A stretch of 64,000 bases of DNA from Rhodohalobacter sp. 614A (GTDB lineage Bacteria; Bacteroidota; Rhodothermia; Balneolales; Balneolaceae). The stretch lies in the NCBI RefSeq assembly GCF_021462415.1, contig NZ_JAKEDS010000002.1, forward strand, positions 1,116,001 through 1,180,000. Reading direction: 5' to 3'. Below are positions 53,527-57,933 of this stretch, piece after piece; position 1 is the stretch's first letter; each line of letters starts with the position of its first letter. Below the pieces are notes generated by a model, which worked only from the letters and a program-made list of their open reading frames with translations, ran no database searches and was not told where the DNA came from. The position numbers and the translations under genes were made by a program.

Positions 53527-56500
53527 TCATCCCACACTTCCCTCCACGATTTCAATCTCCTCCTCACTCAATCCATACAACTCATACACCAGCCGGTCTA
53601 TTTCCGCTTCCAGTTTGCCGGTGTCGGCTTCGGGGTTTTGTTTTTTGGTGATGAGGATTTCGTCCACGAGTGTGGTAAGTTTTTCTGATTTTTTTGGAAC
53701 TGGAAAATCTTTTAAAAACACATAACTGGGCTCATAATAATCCCCTCTTAGTTTGGGGAGAATTAAGTCGTACAAAAAATAAACAAGAGTACTGTTCATG
53801 TAACCCAAAAGAAATTTATCATCTAAACTGATGATAAAGCACTTTTGGTTTGTATACTTGTTTTCATCGTCATAGGTATATTCTGGCTGCTTACATATAT
53901 TTGGATAAATAATCTTTGGCTTCTCAAACTCTTCATAATAATCGACTGCATCCTGAATTTCATACCATTTATAACTTCCCGGTTTTCTTCCTGGCCATTC
54001 GCTGCCTGGAATATCCTTGGGGCGGGGTTTCAGCTGTTCTTTAAATCCTTCTAAATATTTTTTAACGGCCGGGTACTTATCAATTTCAATTCCTCGTCTT
54101 GTAAAAATCAGATAGTTTTCGGGCTCGGGGACCTGATATCGTTTAATATCCCGCCCTGCCAAAAAGGGTTTTATCAATTCCGCACTGGATGCATCTTCAG
54201 CGATCAACCGGTCTTTCGTTTCCTCGTCAATCACAAAAGCTTTATTCAATCCGGTTTTAATGCCATAAAATATTTTCCCTTCTACATATTCACCCAATGG
54301 AGTTCCTGCCTCTTTGAGTTTTTCAAGCAATCGTTGAGTTTCTATCGGCACCAACGACCAGCCTTCTTCACTCAATTTGGTTGCATCTACTTCAAAGCCA
54401 TTTTCCTCTTCCAGAACCTCAAAATTTTCTACAGGCAAACTTTCCACTTCAAATGCTTTGAACACCGTTGGATGGTCGGTTTTCCTGATTTCCAGCAAAC
54501 AGGGATAGGTTGTGGCTTCTTCAAAAACGGGCAGGTCTCCAAAATCGGTGATGGCCGTAATTTGTCTTTGCTGCATCCACGTTCTCAACGGTTTGCCGTA
54601 ATTCGCCCGCATCCATTTATTCGCCACGATATAATGGAAGTAGCCGTTTTCCCGAAGTAATTTCACGCCCTGTTCTATGAAATAAGCATACAAATCCGCA
54701 GTTCCGGCATATACATCAAAATGGGTTTTTAAAAAGGGTTTTAAATCGCCCAACGCTTCCTGCCGCACATACGGCGGATTCCCAATCACCACATCAAACC
54801 CAACAAATGTACCGTCTTTATCCAGCACTTCCGGGAATTCGAAACGCCATTCAAAGGCTTCGCGGTAAAAAGCCCCGGCTTCTTCCCCGGCTTTTTCTTC
54901 TTCCAGTCTGGCTACTTTTTTCTGCTGTTTTTTGAGTTCTTTTTTGGTGGCTTTTCCTTCTCCGAACAGGTCTTCGTTCTGCATCAACTCCAGCTTTCCG
55001 CGGGCGTTACTCAGCTTTTTGTTGATGGGTTTATTGTTGAGCAGGCTTTCGCTGTATTCGGCTTTAATGTCGTCAATGAGTTTTTCCAGGCGCTGTTTCT
55101 CATTGCGGACACGCGTTTCGCGGTAGCTGCGCACAGCCTGTTTGTAATCTTCCAGCGAGTGCTCGCTTTTCTTGAAGATGGAACTGAGATCTTCATCCAG
55201 CCCAAACCGGCTCACCAGCGAATTCCCCGGTTTTATGTTGATATCAATATTGGGAAGGACTTCCAGTTCGGAGTATTCACCCTCACCCAGTCCACCCTCT
55301 CTCCCGCCAGCGGGCGAGGGGAGATCTTTTTCATTCGTTTTTGAATGTGTATTAATCTCTTTACCCGTTCTTTCTCCCTGAGGGTGAGGGTCAAAATGAG
55401 GGCCCGGGCGATAATACGCATGTTTCAGCAGTTCAATCCACAACCGCAGCCGGCAGATTTTCACTGAATTGGGATTGATATCCACCCCAAACAAACAGTT
55501 TTCGATCAGGAATTTCTTTTCGTGGAAGAGCGCCATTTGTACACGCTGGCGGTCACTTCCCGCCGGTTTACGGGTTACCTTCCCGTCTTTCCATTCGTGC
55601 TTCAGCTTGTACTCAAACAGTTCACCTTCGTGCTCAATAGCCAGTTCATCGTTTTCCACCTCAATATCCAGGTATGGAATGCGCTTGCCTTCCGGGTCGC
55701 ACAAAATCTTCAACTCCGACTTGATCGCAATCAGCTCATTCAGGCAGGAAACCAGAAAATGTCCCGATCCCACGGCCGGGTCACAAATGGTGATGGAATT
55801 AATGATGTCATTGGCTTGCCGGATGGAAATGTCTCGTCCGATGCGGTTGGAGATGTCGGTGAGGGTGAGTTTGTCGCCCTCACCCAATTCACCCTCTCCC
55901 CGCCCTTCGGGCACCCCGCTCCCACTGGGAGAGGGAAGTTTTTGAGAATGTGTTTTATCAGAAACATATGACTGAATCGTTTCCAGAACGTTTACAGTAT
56001 TATTTTGAACCTCCTCATTTTTAAATCTTACGATTTGAAGGTTCATTTCCTTTAAAATTTTCTCCCGCTCCTGATCGGATATCTGCTGTTTTTCTTCATT
56101 ATGATATCTGCCATCCAGTTCTATGGCAAGTTTTGCCTCATGGCAATAAAAATCGATAACAAAACCCTCTTTGATCGGATGCTGCCGTCTGAATTTTAGC
56201 CCCATCTGTTTATTCCGCAACAATTGCCAAAGCATCTCCTCAGCCGGCGTCTGGTTTTTGCGAAGGTATCTCGCATTTTCCAGCAGCGACTCAGGAAGCT
56301 TTGCTCTCGGCGTTTCAGAAGACATCCCGCGCTCGAAATCACTCCCTTTTCCCTCGGGGAGAGGGGTTGGGGAGAGGGCCTCTGCAAACTTATCAATCAC
56401 CGCTTTCCGCAAGGTTTCCCGCGCCATATACTCGGTGATAAACCCGGGTGTAAAAAACGAACCGTCTTTGTAACCGTTGATCTTCTCAAAAATAAGTCCA

Positions 56501-57933
56501 AGCACCGAAGCGTTGATCAGCGTTTTGTCTTCAGTTTGAATGCCGCCCGAACTTTCCGCGCTGAAATTATAGGCATCGAGAAACCGAAGGAGATAATCGA
56601 GGGTATTTAATGGGCCTTCGGGAGGGCGGGTTGCCTTCTTCAATATACTTTGAGAATAAAGCCCGAGAGACGCTTTGTCATTCAGCCCGGAAATCTGGAT
56701 AGTGGTTTTTTCGAGTTTTGTGGAATCAAACAGCGAGGAATTCAAATATGGAATATGCCCAAACTGTTCTTGCACAGATCGCGGCCTTTCCTCATTACGA
56801 AGAGCAAGAACCCTGAAGAAAAGTTTATTTAGCTCATCATACTCATCAATGGTATTAAAACTGAGAAACTTAAATTTGTCATCATCATTATGGTAGGAAA
56901 GCAGCTGGGCTTCCATAAGTTTTAAAAAGAGAATACGGTTCATCCATGTAATCACCAGCTCAAGCGCCACACCAAAAAGCTGATCATTTTCATCTCCGCC
57001 ATACTGAGTCCGGGCATCCCGAACCTCATTCATGTGCTGGTCATACCGTAAAATTTCGATAGTATTTTCTATCAGCGACCCGCTTTCTCTTTCATTTTCC
57101 GGCAGTCTTTGAATGAGCCGGCTCCCCTTCTCTTTTACTTCCTGCAGGCCAAGGATATGCAGAAATTCATTATAAAATCGTTTATCGAGCGAGTTGCTGT
57201 CATTGGCAAACGGTTTCTTCACCAAATGCTCCGGAGAAAAAAGCTTGTAGAGCGGAATCAGTTTTTTATCATCATCTTCCGAGGCCGGAGCTGCCAGTTT
57301 TGCTTTGTAATCCTTCAGGTTCAGATAAATTCCATTCAGGTTGGCATCAGAAGCCGCAATAAATTCCCTGAATTTGCCGTACAAAAAATCGGTATTGGAA
57401 GAGACTTTCTGGTCATTTTTCCAGTTTCGAAAGGTTTTAATCAGTGACTTTTTGGAGTAAAAATTCCGTTCGATCTCCTGGGCATCAAAGAAAAAGAACT
57501 CCGTATAATTGGTGATGACAACTTGTTTGATGTCTTCATTGCCACCCTCCCGTTCCTCAAAATAATAGAGAAGTGCTTCGTGAAGAGCTTTGGCGTTGCC
57601 ATTCTCTTGGGTGATCATCTCACGGGTATTTCCCGGTTTTTTCGCTTCAATGAGCACTTCCAGGATAGAGGATTTTGTTTTCCCGGAATAAATCCCCAGA
57701 TCCACCCGATTGCTGGTGTTTACCAACCGTTCTTCTTTATTGTAAAAACTGTTTTGCAGAAAATCCCGGAGGTACCCTTTCAGGTGTTCTTCGCTCTCTC
57801 CTTCGGCATGACTCAAACTTTTTAGGTACGCGGTCGCCTCTTCTTTAAAATGATCCAGGTCTGCCCGTTTAATAGTGACCTTTAAATATGCCTTATTGAT
57901 CCCCTGCCGAACAGTTGTTGTATGTAGATTCAT
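53527..57933 (-). CDS. Type IIG-like restriction-modification protein (Eco57I-type methylase) with two in-frame insertions
   Basis: 1468 residues, larger than usual for the family. N-terminal PD-(D/E)xK nuclease signature: VDLGIYSG (Asp78) and LIEAKK (Glu96, Lys98). Methylase motif I is CDPAVGSGHFLVS (about 718-730); catalytic motif IV is NPPY (about 1050), typical of N6-adenine methyltransferases. A coiled-coil-like stretch lies near 930-1010 and a TaqI-type target-recognition region follows to the end. Two segments do not belong to the family: residues about 519-686 (a DUF559 nuclease between palindromic ends) and about 848-884 (a short palindromic element). The frame stays open through both. 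No partner restriction or specificity genes are adjacent, so it is a single-protein defence system. Confidence 0.88.
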   Translation of the reverse strand: MNLHTTTVRQGINKAYLKVTIKRADLDHFKEEATAYLKSLSHAEGESEEHLKGYLRDFLQNSFYNKEERLVNTSNRVDLGIYSGKTKSSILEVLIEAKKPGNTREMITQENGNAKALHEALLYYFEEREGGNEDIKQVVITNYTEFFFFDAQEIERNFYSKKSLIKTFRNWKNDQKVSSNTDFLYGKFREFIAASDANLNGIYLNLKDYKAKLAAPASEDDDKKLIPLYKLFSPEHLVKKPFANDSNSLDKRFYNEFLHILGLQEVKEKGSRLIQRLPENERESGSLIENTIEILRYDQHMNEVRDARTQYGGDENDQLFGVALELVITWMNRILFLKLMEAQLLSYHNDDDKFKFLSFNTIDEYDELNKLFFRVLALRNEERPRSVQEQFGHIPYLNSSLFDSTKLEKTTIQISGLNDKASLGLYSQSILKKATRPPEGPLNTLDYLLRFLDAYNFSAESSGGIQTEDKTLINASVLGLIFEKINGYKDGSFFTPGFITEYMARETLRKAVIDKFAEALSPTPLPEGKGSDFERGMSSETPRAKLPESLLENARYLRKNQTPAEEMLWQLLRNKQMGLKFRRQHPIKEGFVIDFYCHEAKLAIELDGRYHNEEKQQISDQEREKILKEMNLQIVRFKNEEVQNNTVNVLETIQSYVSDKTHSQKLPSPSGSGVPEGRGEGELGEGDKLTLTDISNRIGRDISIRQANDIINSITICDPAVGSGHFLVSCLNELIAIKSELKILCDPEGKRIPYLDIEVENDELAIEHEGELFEYKLKHEWKDGKVTRKPAGSDRQRVQMALFHEKKFLIENCLFGVDINPNSVKICRLRLWIELLKHAYYRPGPHFDPHPQGERTGKEINTHSKTNEKDLPSPAGGREGGLGEGEYSELEVLPNIDINIKPGNSLVSRFGLDEDLSSIFKKSEHSLEDYKQAVRSYRETRVRNEKQRLEKLIDDIKAEYSESLLNNKPINKKLSNARGKLELMQNEDLFGEGKATKKELKKQQKKVARLEEEKAGEEAGAFYREAFEWRFEFPEVLDKDGTFVGFDVVIGNPPYVRQEALGDLKPFLKTHFDVYAGTADLYAYFIEQGVKLLRENGYFHYIVANKWMRANYGKPLRTWMQQRQITAITDFGDLPVFEEATTYPCLLEIRKTDHPTVFKAFEVESLPVENFEVLEEENGFEVDATKLSEEGWSLVPIETQRLLEKLKEAGTPLGEYVEGKIFYGIKTGLNKAFVIDEETKDRLIAEDASSAELIKPFLAGRDIKRYQVPEPENYLIFTRRGIEIDKYPAVKKYLEGFKEQLKPRPKDIPGSEWPGRKPGSYKWYEIQDAVDYYEEFEKPKIIYPNICKQPEYTYDDENKYTNQKCFIISLDDKFLLGYMNSTLVYFLYDLILPKLRGDYYEPSYVFLKDFPVPKKSEKLTTLVDEILITKKQNPEADTGKLEAEIDRLVYELYGLSEEEIEIVEGSVG
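55280..55390. mobile_element. Small palindrome-ended element inserted in frame in the RM gene
   Basis: 111 bases between CCCTCACCC (55280-55288) and its exact inverted copy GGGTGAGGG (55382-55390), with TCA directly repeated on both sides. It adds 37 codons (in frame) between the HAYYRPG and YSELEVLPNIDIN stretches. Its left end (CCCTCACCCAGTCCACCCTC) matches that of the DUF559 element in the same gene. It translates to a Gly/Glu/Pro-rich linker. Confidence 0.7.
55877..56378 (-). mobile_element. DUF559-nuclease element inserted in frame in the RM gene
   Basis: About 502-504 bases bounded by imperfect inverted repeats: CCCTCACCCAATTCACCCTC at 55877 and, read inward on the minus strand from 56378, CCCTCTCCCCAACCCCTCTC. 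Inside, on the same strand and frame as the host gene, is a DUF559/Vsr-like PD-(D/E)xK endonuclease domain of about 115 residues: NARYLRKNQTPAEEMLWQLL, LKFRRQHPI, FVIDFYC, LAIELDGRYH. The ends are translated as low-complexity linkers (LSPTPLPEGKGS and GELGEGD). The host frame continues on both sides. Confidence 0.75.

Follow-up and report, generated by a model that had tools for sequence, protein, structure and literature searches.

A 111-bp palindromic insert in a restriction–modification gene is probably a decayed relative of boxC-type repeats that accompany DUF559 nucleases

A palindromic insert of 111 bp in a type IIG-like restriction–modification (RM) gene is best explained, with a probability of roughly 0.6, as an old, partly decayed and nuclease-less copy of a mobile element of the boxC/PIT/triplex kind, the nuclease-bearing form of which would be a DUF559 gene lying between two such palindromes. 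Alignment with related genes supports an insertion of the 111 bp into a linker of the RM gene, where they sit in a loop of the enzyme that tolerates insertions, and, judged by sequence, they appear to be a decayed relative of the boxC/PIT/'triplex motif' repeats. E. coli has been known to contain these repeats since the 1990s, but how they spread has, to our knowledge, not been explained. The repeat family itself is familiar, and what is new here is the link of boxC-type repeats to DUF559; in the open-access literature we found neither this link nor in-frame insertions of this kind in core enzymes, and an earlier account in print is possible. The relevant features of the window (the whole 64-kb stretch of DNA that was analysed) are as follows:

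53527..57933, minus strand: host gene of 1468 aa with DUF7149, DUF7814, Eco57I methylase and TaqI_C, a type IIG-like RM enzyme
55280..55390, no strand assigned: palindromic insert of 111 bp, encoding host residues ~848-885
55280..55288, plus strand: left terminal 9-mer CCCTCACCC, located by exact-match search of the window
55382..55390, minus strand: right terminal 9-mer GGGTGAGGG, an exact inverted copy of CCCTCACCC, located by the same search
55295..55320, no strand assigned: imperfect hairpin CCCTCTCTCCC-GCCAGC-GGGCGAGGG inside the 111-bp insert, which fails the exact boxC consensus
55877..56378, minus strand: companion DUF559 element of 502 bp in the same gene, with similar ends
55966..56286, minus strand: DUF559 nuclease domain (PF04480, E 6.8e-30)
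55877..55935, no strand assigned: palindromic end of the DUF559 element, 3' in the coding sense
56350..56378, no strand assigned: palindromic end of the DUF559 element, 5' in the coding sense

The original prediction had described 111 bases bounded by CCCTCACCC and its perfect inverted copy GGGTGAGGG, with a left end agreeing with that of the DUF559 element, and both statements were borne out: the bounds are exact at 55280-55390, the three exact occurrences of CCCTCACCC in the 64-kb window are the two insert ends and the DUF559-element end at 55877, and the left ends of the two elements are 79% identical over 39 nt without gaps (family D2). The insert had also been said to add exactly 37 codons, which is right for its length (111 = 37 x 3) and for its reading frame, the 1468-aa frame staying open throughout, whereas the protein as a whole has grown by about 40 residues, its linker measuring 48 aa as against the 8 aa of the empty linkers in L060, L032, L035 and L063. 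When host residues 698-1205 were modelled with AlphaFold2 (20 sequences, mean pLDDT 69), residues 846-885 fell below a pLDDT of 50, a stretch that corresponds to the insert (848-885) and two residues upstream; as evidence for disorder this is weak, because the insert is covered by no close homologue. Folded as a single strand, the 111 bp do only moderately better than shuffled sequences (z -2.1; 6/200 shuffles equally good), and the copy is therefore regarded as degenerate. This degeneracy and modest z score, together with the mild enrichment of CCCTCACCC with at most one mismatch in the window (16 occurrences vs 9.5 expected; 2/100 shuffles reach 16), would suit an ordinary linker in which GC-rich, low-complexity palindromes arose by chance and no mobile element was ever involved. 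Such an origin is nevertheless very improbable in view of the exact terminal inverted 9-mers, the 39-nt similarity to the DUF559-element end, the existence of empty relatives and the entry of the same palindrome class into the linker on separate branches.

Empty sites in relatives, the first check that had been proposed, were readily found. Among 30 aligned host proteins, the query included, in which the linker between ELLKxAYY and LEVLPNIDIN was compared, 18 have an empty linker of 5-9 residues and 12 a longer one. Five of the 12 long linkers contain GC palindromes of the same class, one contains a complete DUF559 (L074) and six contain other sequence, some of it repeat-like. The five palindromic solos are those of the window, Algoriphagus (L059), G019 (L030), the cyanobacterium Roseofilum (L069) and a Flavobacteriales MAG (L077), and in a host tree of the 30 rows, built by a quick method and without the inserts, they need five changes, at least four of which are forced by starred branches. 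In L062, L066 and L073, the matching linker was seen to carry a RHAELDTESS-type insert, a GACAGGGCATGCCCTGTC palindrome and a GGAACCC tandem, and on account of these other repeat-like inserts the linker is considered a general insertion hot spot. The 111-bp form itself was nowhere seen to move; in the genome of the window (G000; 4.69 Mb, 99% complete, with the Balneolaceae Gracilimonas, Fodinibius and Balneola among its relatives), the tight end pattern occurs twice, both times within the host RM gene, the two copies being the 111 bp and the DUF559 element.

TCA is present on either side of the 111-bp insert, as had been noted, and the repeat as such stands; its reading as a 3-base target duplication does not. 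Among 18 comparable solo copies, one has a direct 3-bp flank repeat and six have inverted flanks, so that the TCA is not taken as a target duplication, and filled sites in MetH, described below, replace linker codons instead; a 3-bp target duplication was rejected on these grounds. The same data bear on the idea of a MITE-like insert that depends on a conventional DDE or HUH transposase unrelated to DUF559, DUF559 itself being merely another passenger or target. The small size of the insert, the TCA on both sides and its terminal inverted repeats would fit, and RAYT transposases do move REP repeats. However, the duplication is absent in 17/18 solos and in MetH, and what lies between the palindromes in the cases read is DUF559 and no transposase gene, which makes a passenger of this type unlikely. 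As for a MITE of the DUF559 element, the 111 bp and that element do share terminal inverted repeats, if imperfect ones (39 nt, 79%).

In the available text of Holder et al. 2015 (PMC4666352), the consensus of the boxC/PIT/TM_ECO intrastrand-triplex repeats is given as CCCTCNCCC-N3-6-GGGNGAGGG-N3-GGGNGAGGG, with 23 copies in K-12, occurrence in >260 genomes and a location that in E. coli is always intergenic; paired copies in K-12 span about 85-129 bp end to end (Table 1), and mobility functions nearby were, according to that text, never found. The 111 bp are like these repeats in their 9-mer blocks (CCCTCNCCC / GGGNGAGGG) and in the order of hairpin plus third block, the hairpin at 55295..55320 and the left 9-mer resembling the boxC/triplex-motif layout of third-strand block, spacer and hairpin. 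They are unlike them in being degenerate, in their tie to DUF559 and in lying in frame within a gene, inside the open frame of 1468 aa, whereas E. coli boxC is described as intergenic. In the right half of the 111 bp, one arm is longer by a 2-nt insertion and the spacer measures 6 nt, and the exact consensus has 0 matches in G000, even with second spacers of 3-6; because the copies in the window do not match this pattern exactly, we treat the 111 bp as a degenerate relative and not as a strict boxC member. The related genome G019 does contain the exact consensus, at the DUF559 element of the homologous host gene. Another relative, G005, has a crisp solo form, the palindrome CCCTCTCCCCCAACCCCTCTCCC-GC-GGGAGAGGGGCGAAGGGGTGAGGG of ~50 bp with 44 arm matches genome-wide, and many near-identical ~50-bp solos stand at separate places, mostly without an adjoining DUF559. 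Intergenic solos of this genome (L206-L224) were observed within a longer repeat (TTTCG..CGAAA, then GACCGTT / CTCTTGGCACAGACC).

The companion element carries DUF559 at residues 551-656 of the 1468-aa host protein, as placed by profile search, and the structure model of this domain (pLDDT 84) has its best Foldseek matches in 3hrl (E 5e-6) and the homing nuclease I-Bth0305I (3r3p, E 3e-4). DUF559 is also found at the corresponding host site in L030 and L059, while in L035/L226 (genome G017) a solo palindrome of ~49 bp with CGA on either side stands at the DUF559 site of the host gene; a search of G017 gave no DUF559 match. In a Lunatimonas homologue of the host gene (L065:3418-3741), DUF559 occupies yet another site, the third, which is close to the N-terminus. 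In G000, DUF559 occurs at three places, one of which is a fragment adjoining another such repeat. The fragmentary DUF559 with a CCCTCACCCCACCCCCTCTCCCG end at L232 (G000:C1:410400-413400) appears to be a decaying second element of this genome.

In a rival history of the insert, a full DUF559 element stood in the linker, a deletion between its palindromic ends removed the nuclease, and the short form never moved itself. The repeat family and the nuclease partner are here the same as in the best explanation and only the final step is different, and the full DUF559 element in the same linker of L074 makes it a near-equal alternative, possible if somewhat short of even odds. It would agree with the shrinkage of E. 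coli boxC pairs by deletion between arms and with the L035 solo, which stands where three relatives have DUF559, but the AT-rich sequence inside the 111 bp shows no significant similarity to the coding sequence of the DUF559 body (102/2000 shuffles and 10/140 window pieces score as high), and the scattered near-identical solos of G005 would need many full insertions.

The association of palindromes with DUF559 was analysed in a larger set of loci (101 given, 99 with a match), of which 71 were kept after duplicates and short flanks had been dropped. In 41/71 loci (about 3.6 expected) the left and right flanks, compared as inverted repeats, score higher than the 95th percentile of mismatched pairs, and in 18/71 higher than the 99th, with 30/71 staying at or below the 95th percentile. 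In 66 of the 71 loci, perfect GC-rich hairpins were counted, with 99 of them within 350 bp of DUF559, in 49/66 loci, vs five at 700-1050 bp, in 4/66 loci (Wilcoxon p 1.5e-9), a comparison of near and far windows of the same loci that is biased in that near windows are more often intergenic. A hairpin is present on both sides of DUF559 in 30/71 loci and on neither in 17/66. That these hairpins are terminators is spoken against by the window, which contains 0 perfect GC-rich 8-bp hairpins over its whole 64 kb, and by the cases in which DUF559 is in frame within another gene.

At the level of genomes, the exact triplex motif occurs in 24/394 members of the phylum, and DUF559 is present in 23 of these 24 vs 198/370 genomes without the motif (Fisher p 1.9e-5); counted by genus, the figures are 20/21 vs 89/149 (p 0.001). 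Among the matches listed in motif genomes, the exact motif lies within 82 bp of DUF559 in nine of 19 places, four of which (G134, G298, G348 and G394) have motifs on both sides. With a looser pattern, applied to 98 close relatives, DUF559 is present in 11/15 pattern genomes vs 40/83 others, a difference that is not significant (p 0.09). The expectation that short repeats track with DUF559 was thus supported for the exact motif and by position (49/66 vs 4/66 loci), but not for the looser pattern. Common occurrence of the short form without DUF559, which had been named as a refutation, was largely not seen: for the exact motif it is limited to 1/24 genomes (G433), whereas for the looser pattern it extends to 4/15 (G017, G061, G069 and G081). 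On a Synechocystis B12 plasmid (L279:1328-3852), a DUF559 gene with palindromes on its flanks comes after a short DUF1156 gene, which it may split. Segments with transposase and DUF559 are recombination hotspots in Legionella (excerpt of PMC12308824).

Of 40 loci picked from listings (27 of them for long frames), 37 contain DUF559, in 27 cases within frames >600 aa; these counts give no estimate of frequency because the loci were picked for length. According to NCBIfam and Pfam, the 27 hosts are MetH (8), LeuRS (6), HsdR (4), IcmF (2), RecB/AddA-like proteins (2), type ISP RM enzymes (2), other methylase-type proteins (2) and a homologue of the window's own host gene (L331). The linkers flanking DUF559 in these hosts are PSPxxGxGxGE-like, the frames stay open and the insertions, as far as can be read from the genes, are apparently unspliced. 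In MetH (L323, L325, L327, L328, L330, L333, L334 and L350), DUF559 lies in frame just before the VKGDVHDIGKNIV region, which is presumably B12-binding. The LeuRS cases in frame are L319, L321, L329, L354, L355 and L356; short PSPxxGxG-like stretches were observed in further linkers of the same LeuRS in L329 and L319.

Filled and empty alleles of one host could be compared in the genus of G389, in which 115 of 121 genomes have a MetH match. Of the best 30 loci among these matches, 11 have a complete DUF559, one is cut off and 18 are empty, filled alleles being over-represented since the 30 loci are the best matches to a filled query. The MetH element has ends of another flavour (GCCCCCCAGCCCCCGAAGGGGGAG and its near inverse), and the filled alleles are without about eight linker codons that are present in the empty ones, with no duplication. 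On the MetH tree the filled/empty label needs two changes, and the G389 allele (L357) nests among empty alleles on starred branches. The flanks of this allele share about 90% identity with the nearest empties and, for the most part, 60-90% with other filled alleles; against the empties, identity drops to 66-76% over the 30 bp preceding the element and to 75-82% over the 30 bp that follow it. By these alignments, G389 MetH is one clear gain of the DUF559 form, with a short stretch replaced.

A mechanism can be proposed in which DUF559, with its EDxHD homing-nuclease (I-Bth0305I) fold, would nick or cut near a hairpin or an empty site and the element would be copied in by break repair, a few codons being replaced and no target duplication being made. 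Short copies might then arise either in trans or from full elements whose nuclease has been deleted, and those surviving selection would be only the in-frame, stop-free copies in tolerant loops. That the nuclease mobilised the 111 bp, as originally suggested, is one possibility; nuclease loss in place fits as well, and the many separate G005 solos speak for movement of short forms. More tentatively, and with a likelihood that we would place below one half, DUF559 with triplex-type palindromes may constitute unrecognised, unspliced in-frame homing elements inside working and even essential enzymes (LeuRS), and the boxC/PIT/triplex repeats, including those of K-12 (ycjD, boxC), may be their nuclease-less miniatures, the 111 bp being one such. 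If true, a small nuclease can inhabit housekeeping enzymes, apparently without splicing, and PSPxxGxGxGE protein stretches can be footprints of mobile DNA and not functional linkers. The tie to DUF559 may also explain the spread of the long-unexplained boxC/PIT/triplex repeats.

In K-12 MG1655 (L285:5041-5828), the DUF559 gene is ycjD, and boxC/TM_ECO no. 9 lies between ycjD and fabI, the gene that we take to be envM. With ycjD beside boxC, K-12 is a strain in which the link between DUF559 and the repeat can be tested, and a partner nuclease would make the spread of boxC a testable question there. For boxC, Holder et al. cite the envM sequence paper (excerpt of PMC4666352). A sapF-ycjD-fabI query was covered to at least 80% in 3363/5426 E. 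coli genomes, and two E. coli strains without ycjD have an efflux operon at that site instead (cf. excerpt of PMC12817139). When three E. coli boxC pairs were aligned, the variation consisted of deletion between arms or loss of the region; E. coli accordingly failed as a clean empty-site test, with arm-to-arm deletion or a missing region and no clean insertion at the three loci. A match on an E. coli plasmid was rejected as evidence of hopping, as it turned out to be a flgF-flgG stretch that the plasmid carries.

Several known systems can be compared with the arrangement described here. In REP/RAYT systems, short palindromes flank a small nuclease-type gene and occur in many solo copies, and the RAYTs are HUH tyrosine transposases. 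The DUF559 system is similar in having palindromes around a small nuclease-type gene, plus solos, but DUF559 is a PD-(D/E)XK/Vsr-like nuclease, unlike the HUH-type RAYT; YcjD has been placed with PD-(D/E)XK and Vsr, and a YcjD profile detects Vsr (excerpt of PMC1189080). The CCCTCTCCCXX(X)GGGAGAGGG palindromes of Enterobacter sp. 638, present in 100 copies, have the same hairpin core and are interpreted as terminators in the accessible part of PMC2869309, unlike the reading preferred here. The Rickettsia palindromic elements, ~150-bp palindromes in frame in unrelated protein genes and apparently tolerated, may be likened to the 111 bp by description, both being in-frame palindromes in protein genes with empty orthologues; they differ in their hosts, and no partner nuclease is named in the available text of PMC10969869. 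The DUF559 form itself can be set beside intein-borne or free-standing homing nucleases and the EDxHD homing endonucleases, a family in which one DUF559 gene has been placed (excerpt of PMC9403480). It is like them in its fold match (3r3p), its empty and filled MetH alleles and its lack of target duplication, and a predicted homing-family fold is combined with gain into an empty MetH background in one case. It differs in that no intron or intein was identified around it and that the nuclease frame lies inside the host frame, between linkers encoded by the palindromes.
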